IMG/VR virus record: IMGVR_UViG_3300048586_000149
Location: 1 to 24,354 of that record
DNA length: 24,354 nt
Origin: a virus
Direction: 5' to 3' (one strand)
The notes under the pieces were generated by a model. The model ran no database searches and was not told the origin of the DNA. It worked only from the letters and a program-made list of their open reading frames with translations. Within the stretch, counting starts at the first letter, position 1. The number at the start of each line of letters is the position of its first letter. The position numbers were made by a program, and so were the translations under genes. Below are positions 1,831 through 6,711 of the stretch, one piece after another.

Positions 1831-3807
1831 TCAGCCGGCCGCCTTCTTGGCCACGACCTTTTTGGCTGCCTTCTTCACGGCTTTCTTGGCGGCCTTCTTC
1901 GCCGCGGGTTTCTTGGCCGTTGGCTTCTTGGCTTTTGCCGGAGCATCGGCAACTGGCGCCGTGGCTTTCTTCTTGCCGTAGTCCGCGCCGCGCAGCAGCT
2001 TGGGCAGCCATCCGGTACCAGCCAGCAGTTTGCCGGCGGTGGCCACTCGCTCAGCCTTCTTCAGACCGGTGAGCGTGGCCGCCGCGTCCTTGCCCTTTGC
2101 TTCGGTAACGGCCTGCACGACCAGGTCGCCATGGATCCGGCCGAGGAAGTCATCGACCGTTGGATTCCAGTGGTCCGCCATGTCGAAGCCGACGATCTGG
2201 TGGATGTCCGCAACCGTTTCGTGGCCATCGCGGTAGGCGGTGATGCCGTCGAAGCTGTTGGCCACCAGCAACGCCAGAATATCCAGGCGCTGTGCATCAG
2301 TCTGTGCCATCAGCCATTGCAGCGTGTCGCGCTTGGGAATGGCGGACAGCTTCTTAACTTCATCTGCAAGCGCAGTGCGCACCGCCTTGTGCACGTCGGC
2401 TACCTTTGCGGCCTCACTGGTGCGGCCGGTGTCGATGCACACTCCGTTGCGGCCATAGGTGTTGGGCCAGTGGCTCTGCAGAAGTCGGTGGATCAGCAGG
2501 CACAGTGCCAACGTGGGGTCGCGGATGATGTGGAGCCGCGCCACTTCGCTGCGGTGTGCGGCCAGCGAAGTGCGAACGGCGTCGCTCAAATCGGCTTTCT
2601 TGGGCTTTTCCTGCTTGGCATTGGCGGCCGGTGCCCCGGATACCTTGCCGTCTTTACCGGCTTTTTCGCCAGGGCGGAGGCGTGCATAGCTGACATTTAG
2701 GCCGCTGTTGTCGGTGAACACTAGGACGCCTGATTTGCCTTTGACCTCATCCGGGTAGACCTGCACCATGCGATCGTCGATATCAGAAAGCTCAGCTTCA
2801 ATCCGCTGCAGTTCATCCTGGAGAGAGTTCTTTTCTTCCTCAGACAGACTGTCCTCATCGATGTCGTAGATCTCGGTCTGGCGCGCATCAAGCACGGCGT
2901 GGCGCGCTTCATCTTCAAGCGTGCCGAACAGTTCGGGCGGTTCTTGGCCCGCAAACAGCAGTCGCGGAAACTCGGCCCGCTCTTCATATGCCATGTTGAT
3001 GCGGGCCTCGGCCCACGACCAGCCCGCATCACGGTGCTGCTGTGCGATAGCTTCCAGCTTGTCCATTGCCAGGGAATCCAGCAATGCGAGATTGGTCAAG
3101 CGCACGTCGTCGTTGAACAGGTTGCGCTGCACGCGGCCGCCGGCGGATTCGTAGGCGTCCAAGCCCACGAAGGTGGCCAGCGCCTCGCCGGCGCCGATTG
3201 AATCGCGGGCAAGGTACTTGCGCAGCGCATGCGGTTGCCGCTCCCAGTCGCCGGCTGCGGTCTCCCACGCCTGGCGCTGCATTTCGTGGTTGTCGGTGCT
3301 GGCCAGCGCGACCAGCTGGTCGAGCGTCATGCCGTCTTCGCGGTACAGCTCAAACAGTTCCGGCCGCACGTTTGCCAGCTTGAGACGCTGCGCGATGTAT
3401 CGCGGGCTCTTGCCGAAGCGCGTGGCGATTTCGTCGACGGTGTTGCCGTCATCCACCAGGCGCTTGAACGCCACGAATTCATCGGCCGGATGCATGGCCA
3501 TGCGTATGATGTTGGCGCTGAGGCCCGCTTCCACGGCGTTGTCGGCATCGACGATCTTGCACGGCACCTCGCGCAGGGCGGCGGGAAGGCGGCCGTCTTC
3601 GTCCATCTGGTGCAGAGCGCGCAGGCGACGGCCGCCGTCCTCCACGTAGTACAGGCCATCGTTGCCGGCCGTCACCACCAGGTTGTTGAGCACGCCTTCC
3701 GCCTCAAGGCTGGCCATCAGGTCATCGATGTCGGTGCTGCCGGTCTTGCGGACGTTGCTGGGCGAAAAGCGCAGGTCTTGCAGGGCAATCTGTTGGATTT
3801 GGGTCAT
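1831..3807 (-). CDS. ParB-like DNA-binding protein with lysine/alanine-rich tail
   Basis: The 658-residue product starts with a ParB/Srx-type N-terminal domain (about residues 1-100, including EDGGRRLRAL and the conserved SANIIRMAMHP). A helix-turn-helix of the KorB/ParB kind follows (about 110-150, TVDEIATRFGKSPRYIAQRL). The middle is acidic and helical. The last 50 or so residues are repeats of KKAAKK, a histone-H1-like tail that should bind DNA non-specifically. No ParA partner is present in the window, so classical partition is unproven, and such proteins can also act as regulators or nucleases. The ATG overlaps the RT stop (ATGA) and is preceded by AGGAG, which couples it to the DGR. Confidence 0.85.
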   Translation of the reverse strand: MTQIQQIALQDLRFSPSNVRKTGSTDIDDLMASLEAEGVLNNLVVTAGNDGLYYVEDGGRRLRALHQMDEDGRLPAALREVPCKIVDADNAVEAGLSANIIRMAMHPADEFVAFKRLVDDGNTVDEIATRFGKSPRYIAQRLKLANVRPELFELYREDGMTLDQLVALASTDNHEMQRQAWETAAGDWERQPHALRKYLARDSIGAGEALATFVGLDAYESAGGRVQRNLFNDDVRLTNLALLDSLAMDKLEAIAQQHRDAGWSWAEARINMAYEERAEFPRLLFAGQEPPELFGTLEDEARHAVLDARQTEIYDIDEDSLSEEEKNSLQDELQRIEAELSDIDDRMVQVYPDEVKGKSGVLVFTDNSGLNVSYARLRPGEKAGKDGKVSGAPAANAKQEKPKKADLSDAVRTSLAAHRSEVARLHIIRDPTLALCLLIHRLLQSHWPNTYGRNGVCIDTGRTSEAAKVADVHKAVRTALADEVKKLSAIPKRDTLQWLMAQTDAQRLDILALLVANSFDGITAYRDGHETVADIHQIVGFDMADHWNPTVDDFLGRIHGDLVVQAVTEAKGKDAAATLTGLKKAERVATAGKLLAGTGWLPKLLRGADYGKKKATAPVADAPAKAKKPTAKKPAAKKAAKKAVKKAAKKVVAKKAAG

Positions 3808-5159
3808 GGTGTGCAGCTCCTATAGGGAATGGAAATGCGCCTGCCTTCCAGGCGGTGAGAGAAACGCCGCGGGAGTGCGGCGGCGGTGATCCAGGGAAAA
3901 CGGCTGTGCAGTGCCTGCTGCAGGCGGTGGCTGTTGGCGTGACGCAAGTGGCCCTGGTAGCTGGCAAGCACACTGCCGATGCGGCGGAAGTCGTCAGGCG
4001 TGCCCTGCAGCTGGTCGCCGCGCACGTGATCGCGTTCCCATGCCTGCAGGGTTTCGCGTGCATGCACCACCACGCGACGGCGTGCCAGCGTGTGCGTGGG
4101 GTGGATGACGTAGCCGAGGAAGTCGATGCCGTCGCCCAGCGGGCGCAGCCTGATGTCCGCCTTCAATGCCAGGCGCAGGTGAGCGTGCAGGAACTGCTCG
4201 ATGCGCGCTTGCCAGCTGGCCAGCTGTGCGCGGTCGTGGTGCACCAGCACGAAGTCATCCACGTACCGCAGGTAGCGAGTGGCCTTGAGCTCGTGCTTGA
4301 CGAACTGGTCCAGCGCGTCCAGGTATACGTTGGCGAAGAACTGGCTGGACAGGTTGCCGATGGGCAGGCCGAAGCCGGCAGGCGCATTGCACAGCCGCTT
4401 GTGCGCCGGCACCGCGGCCAGTTCCTCTGGCGTGGCACGCAGATCCACGCCGGCACGCACGGGGTCACGGCGCAGCAGCGCATGCGTGACGTGCTGGGCT
4501 TCGGCGCCGATGCCAGCACGCTGCAGGACGGGCTTCAGGTGCGCCCACAGCGTGGGACGGTGGATGCTGTTGAAGAAGTTGGCGATATCCAACTGCAGGT
4601 AGTAGCCGCCGCGTTGACCGCTGTGCACCTGGCGCACGAACGCCTGCAGCCTGCGCACGGCGGCATGACTGCCCTTGCCGACACGGTTGGCGTAGCTGTC
4701 GTGGATGAAGCGCGGTTCGTAGATGGCTTCCAGCTGCGGCACCAGCCAGTGGTGCACGACGCGGTCGGCGAAGTCCGGTGCGTGGATCTCGCGGGCCTTG
4801 GGGCGCGTGGCGATGAAACAGGTGGAACGGCGTGGAGCCCAGGTGTTGCTCTGGATCTGCGCCTGCAGGTGCAGCAGGCCATCCATCCAGCGGCTGTCGA
4901 AGCGCAGCTGGTTGTGGCTGGGCACTTTCTGCCGGCGCGCACGACGCCAGGCACGGTAGAGCGATTGCAGCGGTACAGCCCCCTGAAACTCACTGGCACG
5001 ACGCACGGCCAACGCGAACCCGTTGTTGTTGCGGTGGTTGTTGTTGACGTTGCCGTTGTTGAAATTGACGTTCCACGCGGACGCCGAAGACCAGGCAGCC
5101 GCTTCCCCGCGCTCTTGCGACCCAGCCGCACATCCGTGTTGGTAGCGTGGCGTCGTCAT
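3804..5159 (-). CDS. Reverse transcriptase of a diversity-generating retroelement
   Basis: A 451-residue RT. It shows QLDIANFFNSIH (first catalytic Asp, D191), GLPIGNLSSQ (264-273), YVDD (299-302; two catalytic Asp) and FLGY (347-350). The IGxxxSQ motif in place of the QGxxxSP of group II introns marks DGR-type enzymes. It would copy the TR RNA into cDNA with errors at adenines. The chosen ATG (5157-5159) overlaps the avd stop (ATGA). Starting there, residues 20-56 are encoded by the template repeat itself, giving an Asn-rich N-terminal arm, and the RT fold begins directly after it (SLYRAWRRAR, 67-76). A start inside or just after the TR (for example the GTG of AVRRAS) is possible, but I see no good ribosome site there. 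The stop overlaps the ParB-like gene (ATGA). Confidence 0.95.
   Translation of the reverse strand: MTTPRYQHGCAAGSQERGEAAAWSSASAWNVNFNNGNVNNNHRNNNGFALAVRRASEFQGAVPLQSLYRAWRRARRQKVPSHNQLRFDSRWMDGLLHLQAQIQSNTWAPRRSTCFIATRPKAREIHAPDFADRVVHHWLVPQLEAIYEPRFIHDSYANRVGKGSHAAVRRLQAFVRQVHSGQRGGYYLQLDIANFFNSIHRPTLWAHLKPVLQRAGIGAEAQHVTHALLRRDPVRAGVDLRATPEELAAVPAHKRLCNAPAGFGLPIGNLSSQFFANVYLDALDQFVKHELKATRYLRYVDDFVLVHHDRAQLASWQARIEQFLHAHLRLALKADIRLRPLGDGIDFLGYVIHPTHTLARRRVVVHARETLQAWERDHVRGDQLQGTPDDFRRIGSVLASYQGHLRHANSHRLQQALHSRFPWITAAALPRRFSHRLEGRRISIPYRSCTP
4992..5101 (-). repeat. DGR template repeat (TR)
   Basis: This 110-bp segment is the non-varying master copy. On the coding strand, 23 adenines are packed into a 50-base block (5023-5072), flanked by 29 bases without A on one side (5073-5101) and 28 bases without A on the other (4995-5022). 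The block encodes twelve AAY or CAC codons (Asn x11, His x1), with every A at codon position 1 or 2. It aligns without gaps to VR1 (offset 637) and VR2 (offset 1096). It lies within the RT frame and shares the reading frame of the VRs. The A-free stretch at the low-coordinate end, finishing in GTGCCAGT, is the likely template copy of the initiation-of-mutagenic-homology site. Confidence 0.95.
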
Positions 5160-5599
5160 TGATTGGCCCCCGTGGAGGCGGCGCAGGTACTCAGTTTCTT
5201 GCCACGCTGCACGACGGCATTGCTGCCTGATGCACTCTGGGCTTGGGGGTTGGCGAACTGCCGGCGCCATCCGCCGGCTTGTGCACCCAGGCCGTGCGCC
5301 TGGCGTGCCAATTCTTCGAACTGGGCAAAGCTGTTGAACGCATGCAGCAGCTTCGCCGTCTGCATGTACTGCTTCAGCTCATCTATGGCCCACACCAGCT
5401 GTTCCACCCACCGCCGTTGGTGTGCACGGTCGCGCCATGCACGGCTGGCCACGCGGTAGACCGACATGGCCTGCGTGCGCAGGTCCGCGCCGATCTGGTA
5501 GCGGTGGTAGCGAGGAAAGCGGCGCACCGCGTTCTCGATATCCACAAGCAAGCGCTCGGCGGCCTTGACGATGGGTGGGAGCTGGAAACGTGAGGGCAT
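5156..5599 (-). CDS. avd: Avd-like DGR accessory protein
   Basis: A 147-residue, Arg-rich, mostly helical protein encoded between the last target gene and the RT, the position of avd in the Bordetella phage BPP-1 retroelement. The helices run about 5-25 (VKAAERLLVDIENAVRRFP), 33-57 (YQIGADLRTQAMSVYRVASR), 60-85 and 86-105, matching the four-helix-bundle pattern of the bAvd/S23-like family. Avd forms a pentamer that binds the RT and the TR RNA and is needed for cDNA synthesis in the characterised system; that role is inferred here. The last 40 residues are low-complexity and probably reflect constraint as part of the TR RNA. The stop overlaps the RT start (ATGA). No strong ribosome site precedes the ATG. 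Confidence 0.88.
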   Translation of the reverse strand: MPSRFQLPPIVKAAERLLVDIENAVRRFPRYHRYQIGADLRTQAMSVYRVASRAWRDRAHQRRWVEQLVWAIDELKQYMQTAKLLHAFNSFAQFEELARQAHGLGAQAGGWRRQFANPQAQSASGSNAVVQRGKKLSTCAASTGANQ

Positions 5600-5622: not shown

Positions 5623-6048
5623 TTACTGACTGGCACGACGCACGGCCAACGCGAACCCGAGGCTGGAGCGGCGGAAGCTGCTGACGTAGCCGTAGCTGAA
5701 ATCGACGAACCACGCGGACGCCGAAGACCAGGCAGCCGGCGTCTTCGACCAGTACCAATCGCTCTGGATGTTGGTGAAGAAGTCGGTGTTGATGGCCGGC
5801 TGGTAGCGCGTGCGATCGATGAGCAGCTGCAGCTCTTCGATGGTGGGCAGATCCCAGTCGGTCTTGCCCAGCAGGTCGAGTGCACTGGCGCGTGCCTGCA
5901 GGTCTTCCTGGGACTCTTCTTCTTCGTTGATCTGGGTGGCGCTGAATTGCAAGCCAAGGCCGGCAACTTCCACTGCAACCCATTCGATGGCGTCGTTGGG
6001 CAGCGGCTGGCCGTCGGCGCCGATTTTGATGAGGGTGATAGGTGACAT
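5623..6048 (-). CDS. DGR target protein 1 (DUF1566/C-type-lectin-like, variable C-terminus)
   Basis: The 141-residue product has an N-terminal part (1-60) with an acidic stretch NEEEESQEDL and no signal peptide. A shortened DUF1566 (Lcl C-terminal) domain follows, with the core WDLPTIEELQLLID (65-78), PAINTDFF and WYWSKTPAAW. Residues 104-140 are encoded by VR1; the variable residues lie between SASAW and GFALAVRRAS, ending four bases before the stop. This fold displays randomised side chains on a rigid scaffold in known DGR targets. I chose ATG 6048 because AGGAG lies 7 bases before it; an upstream in-frame Met (6081) would run into the preceding gene. The C-terminal domain is paralogous to target protein 2. 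The ligand is unknown. Confidence 0.9.
   Translation of the reverse strand: MSPITLIKIGADGQPLPNDAIEWVAVEVAGLGLQFSATQINEEEESQEDLQARASALDLLGKTDWDLPTIEELQLLIDRTRYQPAINTDFFTNIQSDWYWSKTPAAWSSASAWFVDFSYGYVSSFRRSSLGFALAVRRASQ
5629..5738 (-). repeat. DGR variable repeat 1 (VR1)
   Basis: This is a gap-free 110-bp copy of the TR. It differs at 16 positions, all of which are A in the coding-strand TR (A to T 8, A to G 6, A to C 2). The two A-free flanks are identical to the TR. Translation of the variable block replaces Asn/His codons by Phe, Asp, Ser, Tyr, Leu and Arg. Beyond the TR-matching end, VR1 and VR2 share eight further bases that the TR lacks (AATTACTG on the plus strand, 5621-5628). Confidence 0.96.
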
Positions 6049-6081
6049 GGTGATGCTCCTGTTGATGATCAAAAAGGCCAA

Positions 6082-6711
6082 TTACTGACTGGCACGACGC
6101 ACGGCCAACGCGAACCCGTCGCTGTTGCGGGGGTTGCTGCCGACGACGCCGTTGTCGAAACCGACGCCCCACGCGGACGCCGAAGACCAGGCAGCCGGTG
6201 TGCTGGTCCAGTGCCAGCGCGGCTTGACGTGAGGGAAGAGGCTCACGTCGATTGCGGGCTCGTGGCGCGTGTCGTCGACCAGGTCGGCGAGTTCGGTGCG
6301 GGTGGGCAAGCGCCAGTCGTCGTAGCCCAGCAGGCGCAGCTGCTTGCAGCGTTCGATGCAATGCTCCTGGGTGATGCCGTCGTTTTCGTCAGACGGGTCG
6401 CCGAGAGATTCGACGGACCACATCAGACCGGTGCTGTGATCGATCACGGCGAAGTGGTCGGTGCGGTCGCTGTCGGCGGGCAGGTGCAGGCCTTCAGCGG
6501 TGACCTTGGTGAAGGCGGTGCGGATGCGTTCACCAGGCTGCAGGATGGCCGGCACTTCGTCCGGCCGCAGTCCGGCGATGCCGCCGCTGTGGTAGCGCAC
6601 CGCGGCGTTGTAGTCCGCCGGTCCCGGCAGTGCTTTGGTGATGCCGGCGGCAAGCGTTGCCAGCTGTGGCGCAAACAGGTTGCCGGCGACGTGGATGGTG
6701 ATCTGGTTCAT
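6082..6711 (-). CDS. DGR target protein 2 (tape-measure-like motif plus DUF1566, variable C-terminus)
   Basis: A 209-residue protein. Residues 42-61 (from SGGIAGLRPDEVPAILQPGE) resemble a Gly-rich DEVPAxLxxGE motif that I know from the C-terminal ends of phage tape-measure and minor tail proteins. From about residue 86 there is a complete DUF1566 domain: IDHSTGLMWSVE, a Cys-containing helix, GYDDWRLPTRTELADLVD (129-146), PAIDVSLFP and WHWTSTPAAW. Residues 173-208 are encoded by VR2. No signal peptide is seen. AAGGAG lies 7 bases before the ATG. The N-terminal motif suggests attachment to, or descent from, a virion tail component, but tail assembly is not shown. It is encoded 33 bases upstream of target protein 1 and is the first gene of the DGR block. 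Confidence 0.9.
   Translation of the reverse strand: MNQITIHVAGNLFAPQLATLAAGITKALPGPADYNAAVRYHSGGIAGLRPDEVPAILQPGERIRTAFTKVTAEGLHLPADSDRTDHFAVIDHSTGLMWSVESLGDPSDENDGITQEHCIERCKQLRLLGYDDWRLPTRTELADLVDDTRHEPAIDVSLFPHVKPRWHWTSTPAAWSSASAWGVGFDNGVVGSNPRNSDGFALAVRRASQ
6088..6197 (-). repeat. DGR variable repeat 2 (VR2)
   Basis: This is a gap-free 110-bp copy of the TR with 13 differences, all at coding-strand template adenines (A to G 11, A to T 1, A to C 1). The flanks match the TR exactly. Sites changed in VR1 and VR2 only partly coincide; 20 of the 23 block adenines are altered in at least one copy. The variable block reads Gly, Gly, Asp, Val, Gly, Ser, Pro, Ser and Asp at changed codons, with Asn kept at three. 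Confidence 0.96.

Follow-up and report, generated by a model that had tools for sequence, protein, structure and literature searches.

The template RNA of the DGR described here is, very probably, embedded in the avd-RT message and permuted with respect to the template RNA of BPP-1. Comparison with relatives supports RT translation that would run from an ATGA overlapping the end of avd, through a short leader, the TR and a linker, into the RT fold. It also supports a predicted structured RNA of about 140 nt, formed by the 3' end of avd and the RT leader directly upstream of the TR, one strand of which would pair with the TR 3' junction, and it supports the view that the VRs lack a partner for this strand. 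DGRs are natural targeted-mutagenesis machines, and their template RNA is understood for BPP-1 alone, where a spacer downstream of the TR serves for priming and recruitment. Should an upstream priming strand and a coding TR both be possible, the minimal RNA code of a DGR would be topological and not a fixed order of parts, consisting of a strand that pairs with the TR 3' end and a protein-binding domain, and many spacer-less DGRs in the databases would become interpretable.

The cassette and its relatives

The window, by which the whole stretch of DNA analysed is meant, is a virus contig of 24,354 bases whose minus strand, to which all coordinates given for the cassette and its RNA refer, carries two Lcl_C/DUF1566 target genes for surface-type proteins, each with a VR, an avd-like gene and a DGR RT. 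The RT gene (3804-5159, 451 aa) encodes an RVT_1 domain at residues 121-326 (E 5e-12) and retrieves DGR phages including BPP-1 by tblastn (E 5e-33), and the RT profile of its clade has the BPP-1-type DGR RT 8ub7 as best PDB match. The avd-like gene (5156-5599), which holds part of the RNA element discussed below in its last ~30 codons, covers the bAvd profile PF22296 almost fully at a score below the gathering threshold (24 bits against 40, E 5.6e-5), while its position and conservation fit an Avd-type accessory gene. The TR (4988-5101), a 114-nt repeat of family D1, occupies RT codons 20-57. Its counterparts lie at the 3' ends of the two Lcl_C/DUF1566 genes, VR2 (5625-5738) in target gene 2 (5623-6081) and VR1 (6084-6197) in target gene 1 (6082-6711). 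Sixteen template adenines are mismatched in VR2 and 13 in VR1, in each case alongside one terminal G/C difference at 4991. The marks of a DGR, namely a DGR-type RT, a TR/VR pair differing almost only at adenines and a VR at the 3' end of a C-type-lectin-like target, are thus found together. The differences between TR and VRs appear to carry the imprint of past adenine mutagenesis, and mutagenic retrohoming activity is putative.

The RT stop and the first codon of the following ParB-like gene (1831-3807) likewise share an ATGA (3804-3807), so that avd, RT and the ParB-like gene look translationally chained. At the left end of the window, a tRNA gene (49-121) adjoins an integrase-like ORF (194-1345), an arrangement resembling a prophage attachment site. 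An Rfam scan of the window at gathering score returned this tRNA only, and no known RNA family at the DGR.

Relatives were collected in three sets: 80 viral loci obtained with the whole RT; 78 genome loci and further viral loci obtained with an alignment of the RT domain only, from which the TR is absent; and loci found with two divergent RT domains. Among the 368 loci so collected, some of them overlapping, the TR lies wholly within the RT open frame in 262, partly within it in 26, and upstream of it beyond a stop in 44, the last group consisting mostly of distant relatives that have a spacer of about 200 nt. The window's own clade comprises 126 intact, deduplicated loci whose RT is at least 55% identical to the window RT or to one of five query relatives, and the 83 clade loci kept for the tree form one group (SH-aLRT 99). 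Two loci were set aside from the clade: L197, which contains undetermined bases and has an open frame, and L156, whose RT match falls into two pieces and which looks like a pseudogene. The frames of VRs were assigned by the largest number of Asn codons together with the VR stop; assignment by the longest ORF gave inconsistent frames in GC-rich DNA and was dropped. The label actinobacterial-looking, as applied to some relatives, reflects composition and general resemblance and not taxonomy.

The RNA upstream of the template repeat

Divergence at 4-fold sites is normal past the TR, in RT codons 58-93 (0.43-0.49), is reduced to 0.20-0.23 in the RT leader (5103-5159, codons 1-19 from the start codon to the TR), where coding and RNA constraint are combined, and amounts to 0.18, 0.16 and 0.095 in the last three ten-codon blocks of avd, where codon periodicity is lost. 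No structured Sp element was found downstream of the TR: there is no spacer, and a BPP-1-like Sp embedded after the TR is rejected because synonymous divergence there is ordinary. From an alignment of 78 diverse loci (A2), and with no input structure, RNAalifold returned 33 pairs, 22 of them with two-sided changes. Over the whole structure 90.0% of cells are paired, compared with 74.1% in shuffled alignments and 28-53% when columns are slid.

The helix that links this RNA to the TR, P1, joins GAAACU within avd codons (5193-5198), a strand after which come G5192 and A5191, to the sequence AGUUUC (4985-4990) at the TR 3' junction. It is paired in 99.6% of 468 cells, 45 of them changed on both sides, against 23-50% when slid. 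Its substitutions occur pair by pair at sites 200 nt apart, relatives carrying the combinations GACACU/AGUGUC, GAUACU/AGUAUC, GAGACU/AGUCUC, GAUUCU/AGAAUC, GCAACU/AGUUGC, CACACU/AGUGUG and UACACU/AGUGUA. The motif CUGAGU, which includes the G and then the adenine (A5191) after P1, is identical in 78/78 sequences. The four variable P1 pairs are all possible in 117 of 120 TRs, against a mean of 48 after shuffling, and in one of 205 VRs; being formable in TRs and not in VRs, P1 would tell template from target, and it offers a testable rule for the copying of the TR rather than the VR.

Closer to the RT start, helix P2 pairs avd codons (5181-5187) with RT leader codons 16-18 (5106-5112) and thus spans the start codon; 97.8% of its cells are paired and all seven of its pairs have two-sided changes, 90 such changes being counted against 17.4 in shuffles. 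Hairpin P3 (5166-5179) contains in its 3' arm the RT ribosome-binding site (5166-5171), which in the window is G-rich and not a canonical GGAGG, and hairpin P4 (5125-5151) lies in RT leader codons 3-12, with 88.8% of cells paired. A further hairpin within avd, P0 (5209-5233), is variable and weakly formed in the window itself, with 81.8% of cells paired and two-sided changes in 6/6 pairs. The covariance model of the whole element, R1, matches the window at 5080-5239 with 141.8 bits, the window being a training member. Clade loci outside the training set score 84-140 bits, those with short leaders included, and no-spacer loci at a greater distance have weaker matches, many with E below 1e-3, on the upstream side of the TR. 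The search with R1 gave no match in the actinobacterial-looking, BPP-1 and BPP-1-like loci searched. For L109, L127 and L128, the A-biased repeat that ranks best is 0.7-1.1 kb away from the RT on its upstream side, with an R1 match nearby, the TR being misassigned or the cassette rearranged.

Two other no-spacer groups, one actinobacterial-looking and the other gamma/beta, each have an upstream strand of their own complementary to the TR end, with 0/2000 shuffles as good in either group. A best-helix search without alignment on BPP-1-like loci was uninformative. The viral contigs L249-L292, which are actinobacterial-looking and lack a spacer, have the TR read in the Thr frame, a coupled start that is often 260-290 nt upstream of the RT fold, and a conserved upstream RNA of their own (AATCTGGTCGTGCCGCTG) that pairs with the end of the TR.

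The upstream fold could be a translational attenuator of the RT only, template recruitment and priming being left to other sequences, for instance RT codons or sequences acting in trans. The fold does enclose the RT ribosome-binding site and start, and energy folding of the whole RNA gives P1 little weight, the helix being disfavoured in the window RNA alone (pair probability 0.04); the 260-nt window RNA is less stable than shuffles (z 2.15), and the upstream 138 nt alone fold as P2/P3/P4 with probabilities of 0.67-0.86. An attenuator, however, leaves unexplained the pairing of P1 with the TR 3' junction and its specificity for TRs as opposed to VRs. The RT codons after the TR, where such other sequences might be sought, diverge normally at synonymous sites and no RNA element is seen there, and the other no-spacer groups have a similar upstream pairing with the TR end. 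A role in attenuation alone is hence unlikely, and an upstream RNA that also serves the template is the reading preferred here.

Probable read-through translation and the encoded arm

The sequence-only reading of the window had placed the RT start at an ATG overlapping the avd stop, had the frame run without a stop through the TR into an RT fold beginning shortly afterwards, and had noted that the TR-RT spacer of BPP-1 is missing. The gene layout agrees with it on each of these points. The ATG (5159-5157) and the avd TGA (5158-5156) overlap as ATGA on the minus strand, the frame is open to 3804 and reads the TR in the frame of both VRs, and the RT fold starts at about residue 61-64, after a linker of about 3 codons (4979-4987; its length varies in relatives) compared with a spacer of 144 nt in the BPP-1 locus (L371). 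The segment 4992-5159, which had been given for this arrangement, covers leader and TR, except that the TR itself ends at about 4988. An open frame in a single sequence is weak evidence, since the ORF is open upstream from 5270 in GC-rich DNA and since the TR cannot in any case contain stops in the VR frame. Relatives, as judged from their sequences, lift the open frame beyond chance.

An open RT frame through the TR is found in all 126 distinct and intact loci of the clade, and stops inside the TR occur in more distant relatives only. The start is coupled to the avd stop in 125 of the 126, by ATGA in 123 and by GTGA in two. The remaining locus, L210, on a viral contig, has a single frame that joins avd to RT across the TR (L210:2373-3009), possibly by sequencing error; the raw count of 124 ATGA had included this locus, whose detected coupled start belongs to avd itself. 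The leader shrinks to 8-10 codons in L302, L305, L311 and L237 with the frame kept, and in L237, L302 and L305 the ATGA (GTGA in L237) is shifted along the conserved RNA, which indicates that it is preserved as a start/stop signal and not as an RNA motif.

Stops or frameshifts between the avd stop and the RT fold, which would have spoken against read-through, were sought in the same loci. Tree parsimony yields at least 34 changes of linker length, about 5 of them not multiples of three, and at least 20 changes of leader length, of which 3 are not multiples of three; indels in the clade are in frame or form compensated pairs. In six loci (L182=L039, L104, L294=L061, L239=L066, L154 and L238=L080), which fall into about five independent lineages of the tree, the RT reads the TR in another frame and the arm is Thr-rich, not Asn-rich; in each, the shift that precedes the TR is offset by a second one behind it, and an open RT frame is kept. 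The conserved TR end, GTGAG, contains a TGA that closes the third TR frame, and no clade member uses that frame. Leader codons have a third-position excess of 1.87-fold (95% 1.63-2.18) and a pN/pS of 0.37. Because the indels are mostly in frame or compensated and the leader shows codon periodicity, the continuity of the frame from ATG 5159 is under selection. The proposal that one RNA is both message and template gains from this, the frame from the avd-coupled ATG being kept through the TR in relatives.

On the evidence of these sequences, what selection maintains is frame continuity and not the amino acids of the arm. AlphaFold2 gives residues 1-60 a pLDDT below 50 and a fold from about residue 64, and the Thr-frame lineages, together with an arm modelled as disordered, point to arm composition as a by-product. 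The Asn-rich arm that had been put forward as a feature in its own right is therefore not upheld. It could still be asked whether the encoded TR peptide has a function of its own, such as RNA binding or regulation of the RT, given that an arm is present in every clade member and that Asn- or Thr-rich low-complexity arms could bind RNA. The switch from Asn to Thr in about five lineages, the modelled disorder and the reduction of the leader to 8-10 codons in four loci make such a function improbable.

Translation from the avd-coupled start would be illusory if the RT instead began inside the TR 3' end, where TTG 5012 and GTG 5006 are available as in-frame alternative start codons, or by some other route, the open frame upstream being accidental. 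More distant no-spacer relatives (L111, L124, L126, L121, L290 and L264) do have an RT-frame stop inside the TR. If the RT started internally, however, leader, TR and linker would be free to differ in frame, yet the indels seen in the linker keep the frame or are made good upstream; the start coupled to avd is maintained in the clade, even relocating with the avd stop, and the leader has its third-position excess. An internal start in the window's clade is thus very unlikely, and read-through from ATG 5159 is retained.

In the six distant loci just named a TR-made ATG (TSTMAT) occurs, and the RT may start within the template. Given their stops, the RT must start there inside or after the TR, and full read-through is thus not obligatory for DGRs generally.

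That the upstream conservation reflects protein coding alone, of the avd C-terminus and RT N-terminus, with helices arising by chance in GC-rich DNA, is hardly credible: although most helix strands lie in codons, leader residues are conserved and GC content is high, the end of avd lacks codon periodicity and has the most conserved 4-fold sites of the gene, two-sided changes are more numerous than in any shuffle or slid version, both over the whole structure and in P1 (P2 behaves alike when cells changed are counted), the substitutions in P1 go pair by pair across 200 nt, and equal pairing at random partner columns, sought with slid columns, was not seen.

A proposed message-or-template switch and comparable known systems

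In an embedded and permuted template RNA, P1 would be the counterpart of the duplex between spacer and TR tail in BPP-1. It would place cDNA initiation at the TR 3' end and mark the TR, not the VR, as template, and A5191, two bases 3' of the P1 strand, is the probable priming adenine, a candidate by analogy with BPP-1. The P2/P3/P4 domain would be the binding site of RT-Avd. As the RT ribosome-binding site and its start codon both lie within this domain, a choice between message and template can be envisaged, in which ribosomes finishing avd would unfold the domain and re-initiate on the RT, and folded RNA bound by RT-Avd would be untranslatable. A given RNA molecule would thus serve as message or as template but not as both, leading to cis-assembly and to feedback on RT synthesis, and such an RNA switch may couple RT synthesis to mutagenesis. 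The competition between translation and cDNA synthesis suggested in the sequence-only reading is putative, and the RNA fold around the RT start makes it more plausible. It is reasonably probable that the same arrangement extends to a widespread DGR branch, comprising Lysobacterales phages and related gamma/beta-proteobacterial and actinobacterial-looking groups, in which a 5' priming strand would lie in the avd 3' end, an RT-Avd domain would cover the RT ribosome-binding site and start, the TR would form a disposable arm of the RT, and the transcript would switch between message and template.

Overlap of the TR with an RT ORF end is known, having been catalogued in 2012 as DiGReF structural group 3 by Schillinger et al. 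(PMC3521204), and the window DGR shows the overlap by which that group is defined. For group 3 the TR and RT RNAs were suggested to be separately transcribed, and the account of the group, in the portions of the paper available, is given without frame analysis, translation evidence or upstream RNA structure (PMC3521204). In the literature, of which coverage was partial, nothing was found on read-through translation, on compensated frame switches or on a permuted upstream template RNA, so that an earlier mention is possible; read-through translation and the permuted RNA look new.

In the group II intron pair of LtrA and DIVa, the RNA-binding site overlaps the IEP start codon, which allows autoregulation. 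The window DGR resembles this system in having an RT related by descent and a putative RNA-binding site over its own translation start, the likeness drawn being one of layout. In group II introns DIVa is a critical IEP binding region (PMC2882425). Unlike these introns, the window DGR has neither ribozyme nor splicing, and its template is a short repeat.

With BPP-1, the window DGR shares the RT family, the order avd-TR-RT and the A-specific differences between TR and VR, as well as a short RNA strand that can pair with the tail of the TR and has an adenine two bases farther on. In BPP-1 the strand is Sp48-54 (AGGTGGT, against the TR tail ATCACCT), followed by C55 and by A56, the priming base. 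Both the complementary strand and the priming adenine of BPP-1 lie in a non-coding spacer downstream of the TR and before brt, and this TR-brt spacer folds, recruits RT-Avd and primes cDNA from an internal adenine (PMC12875486). The window DGR, in contrast, has no spacer; a strand of the BPP-1 type, complementary to the TR 3' end, is present in it as P1, but upstream, within avd, and the TR appears to be translated as part of the RT.
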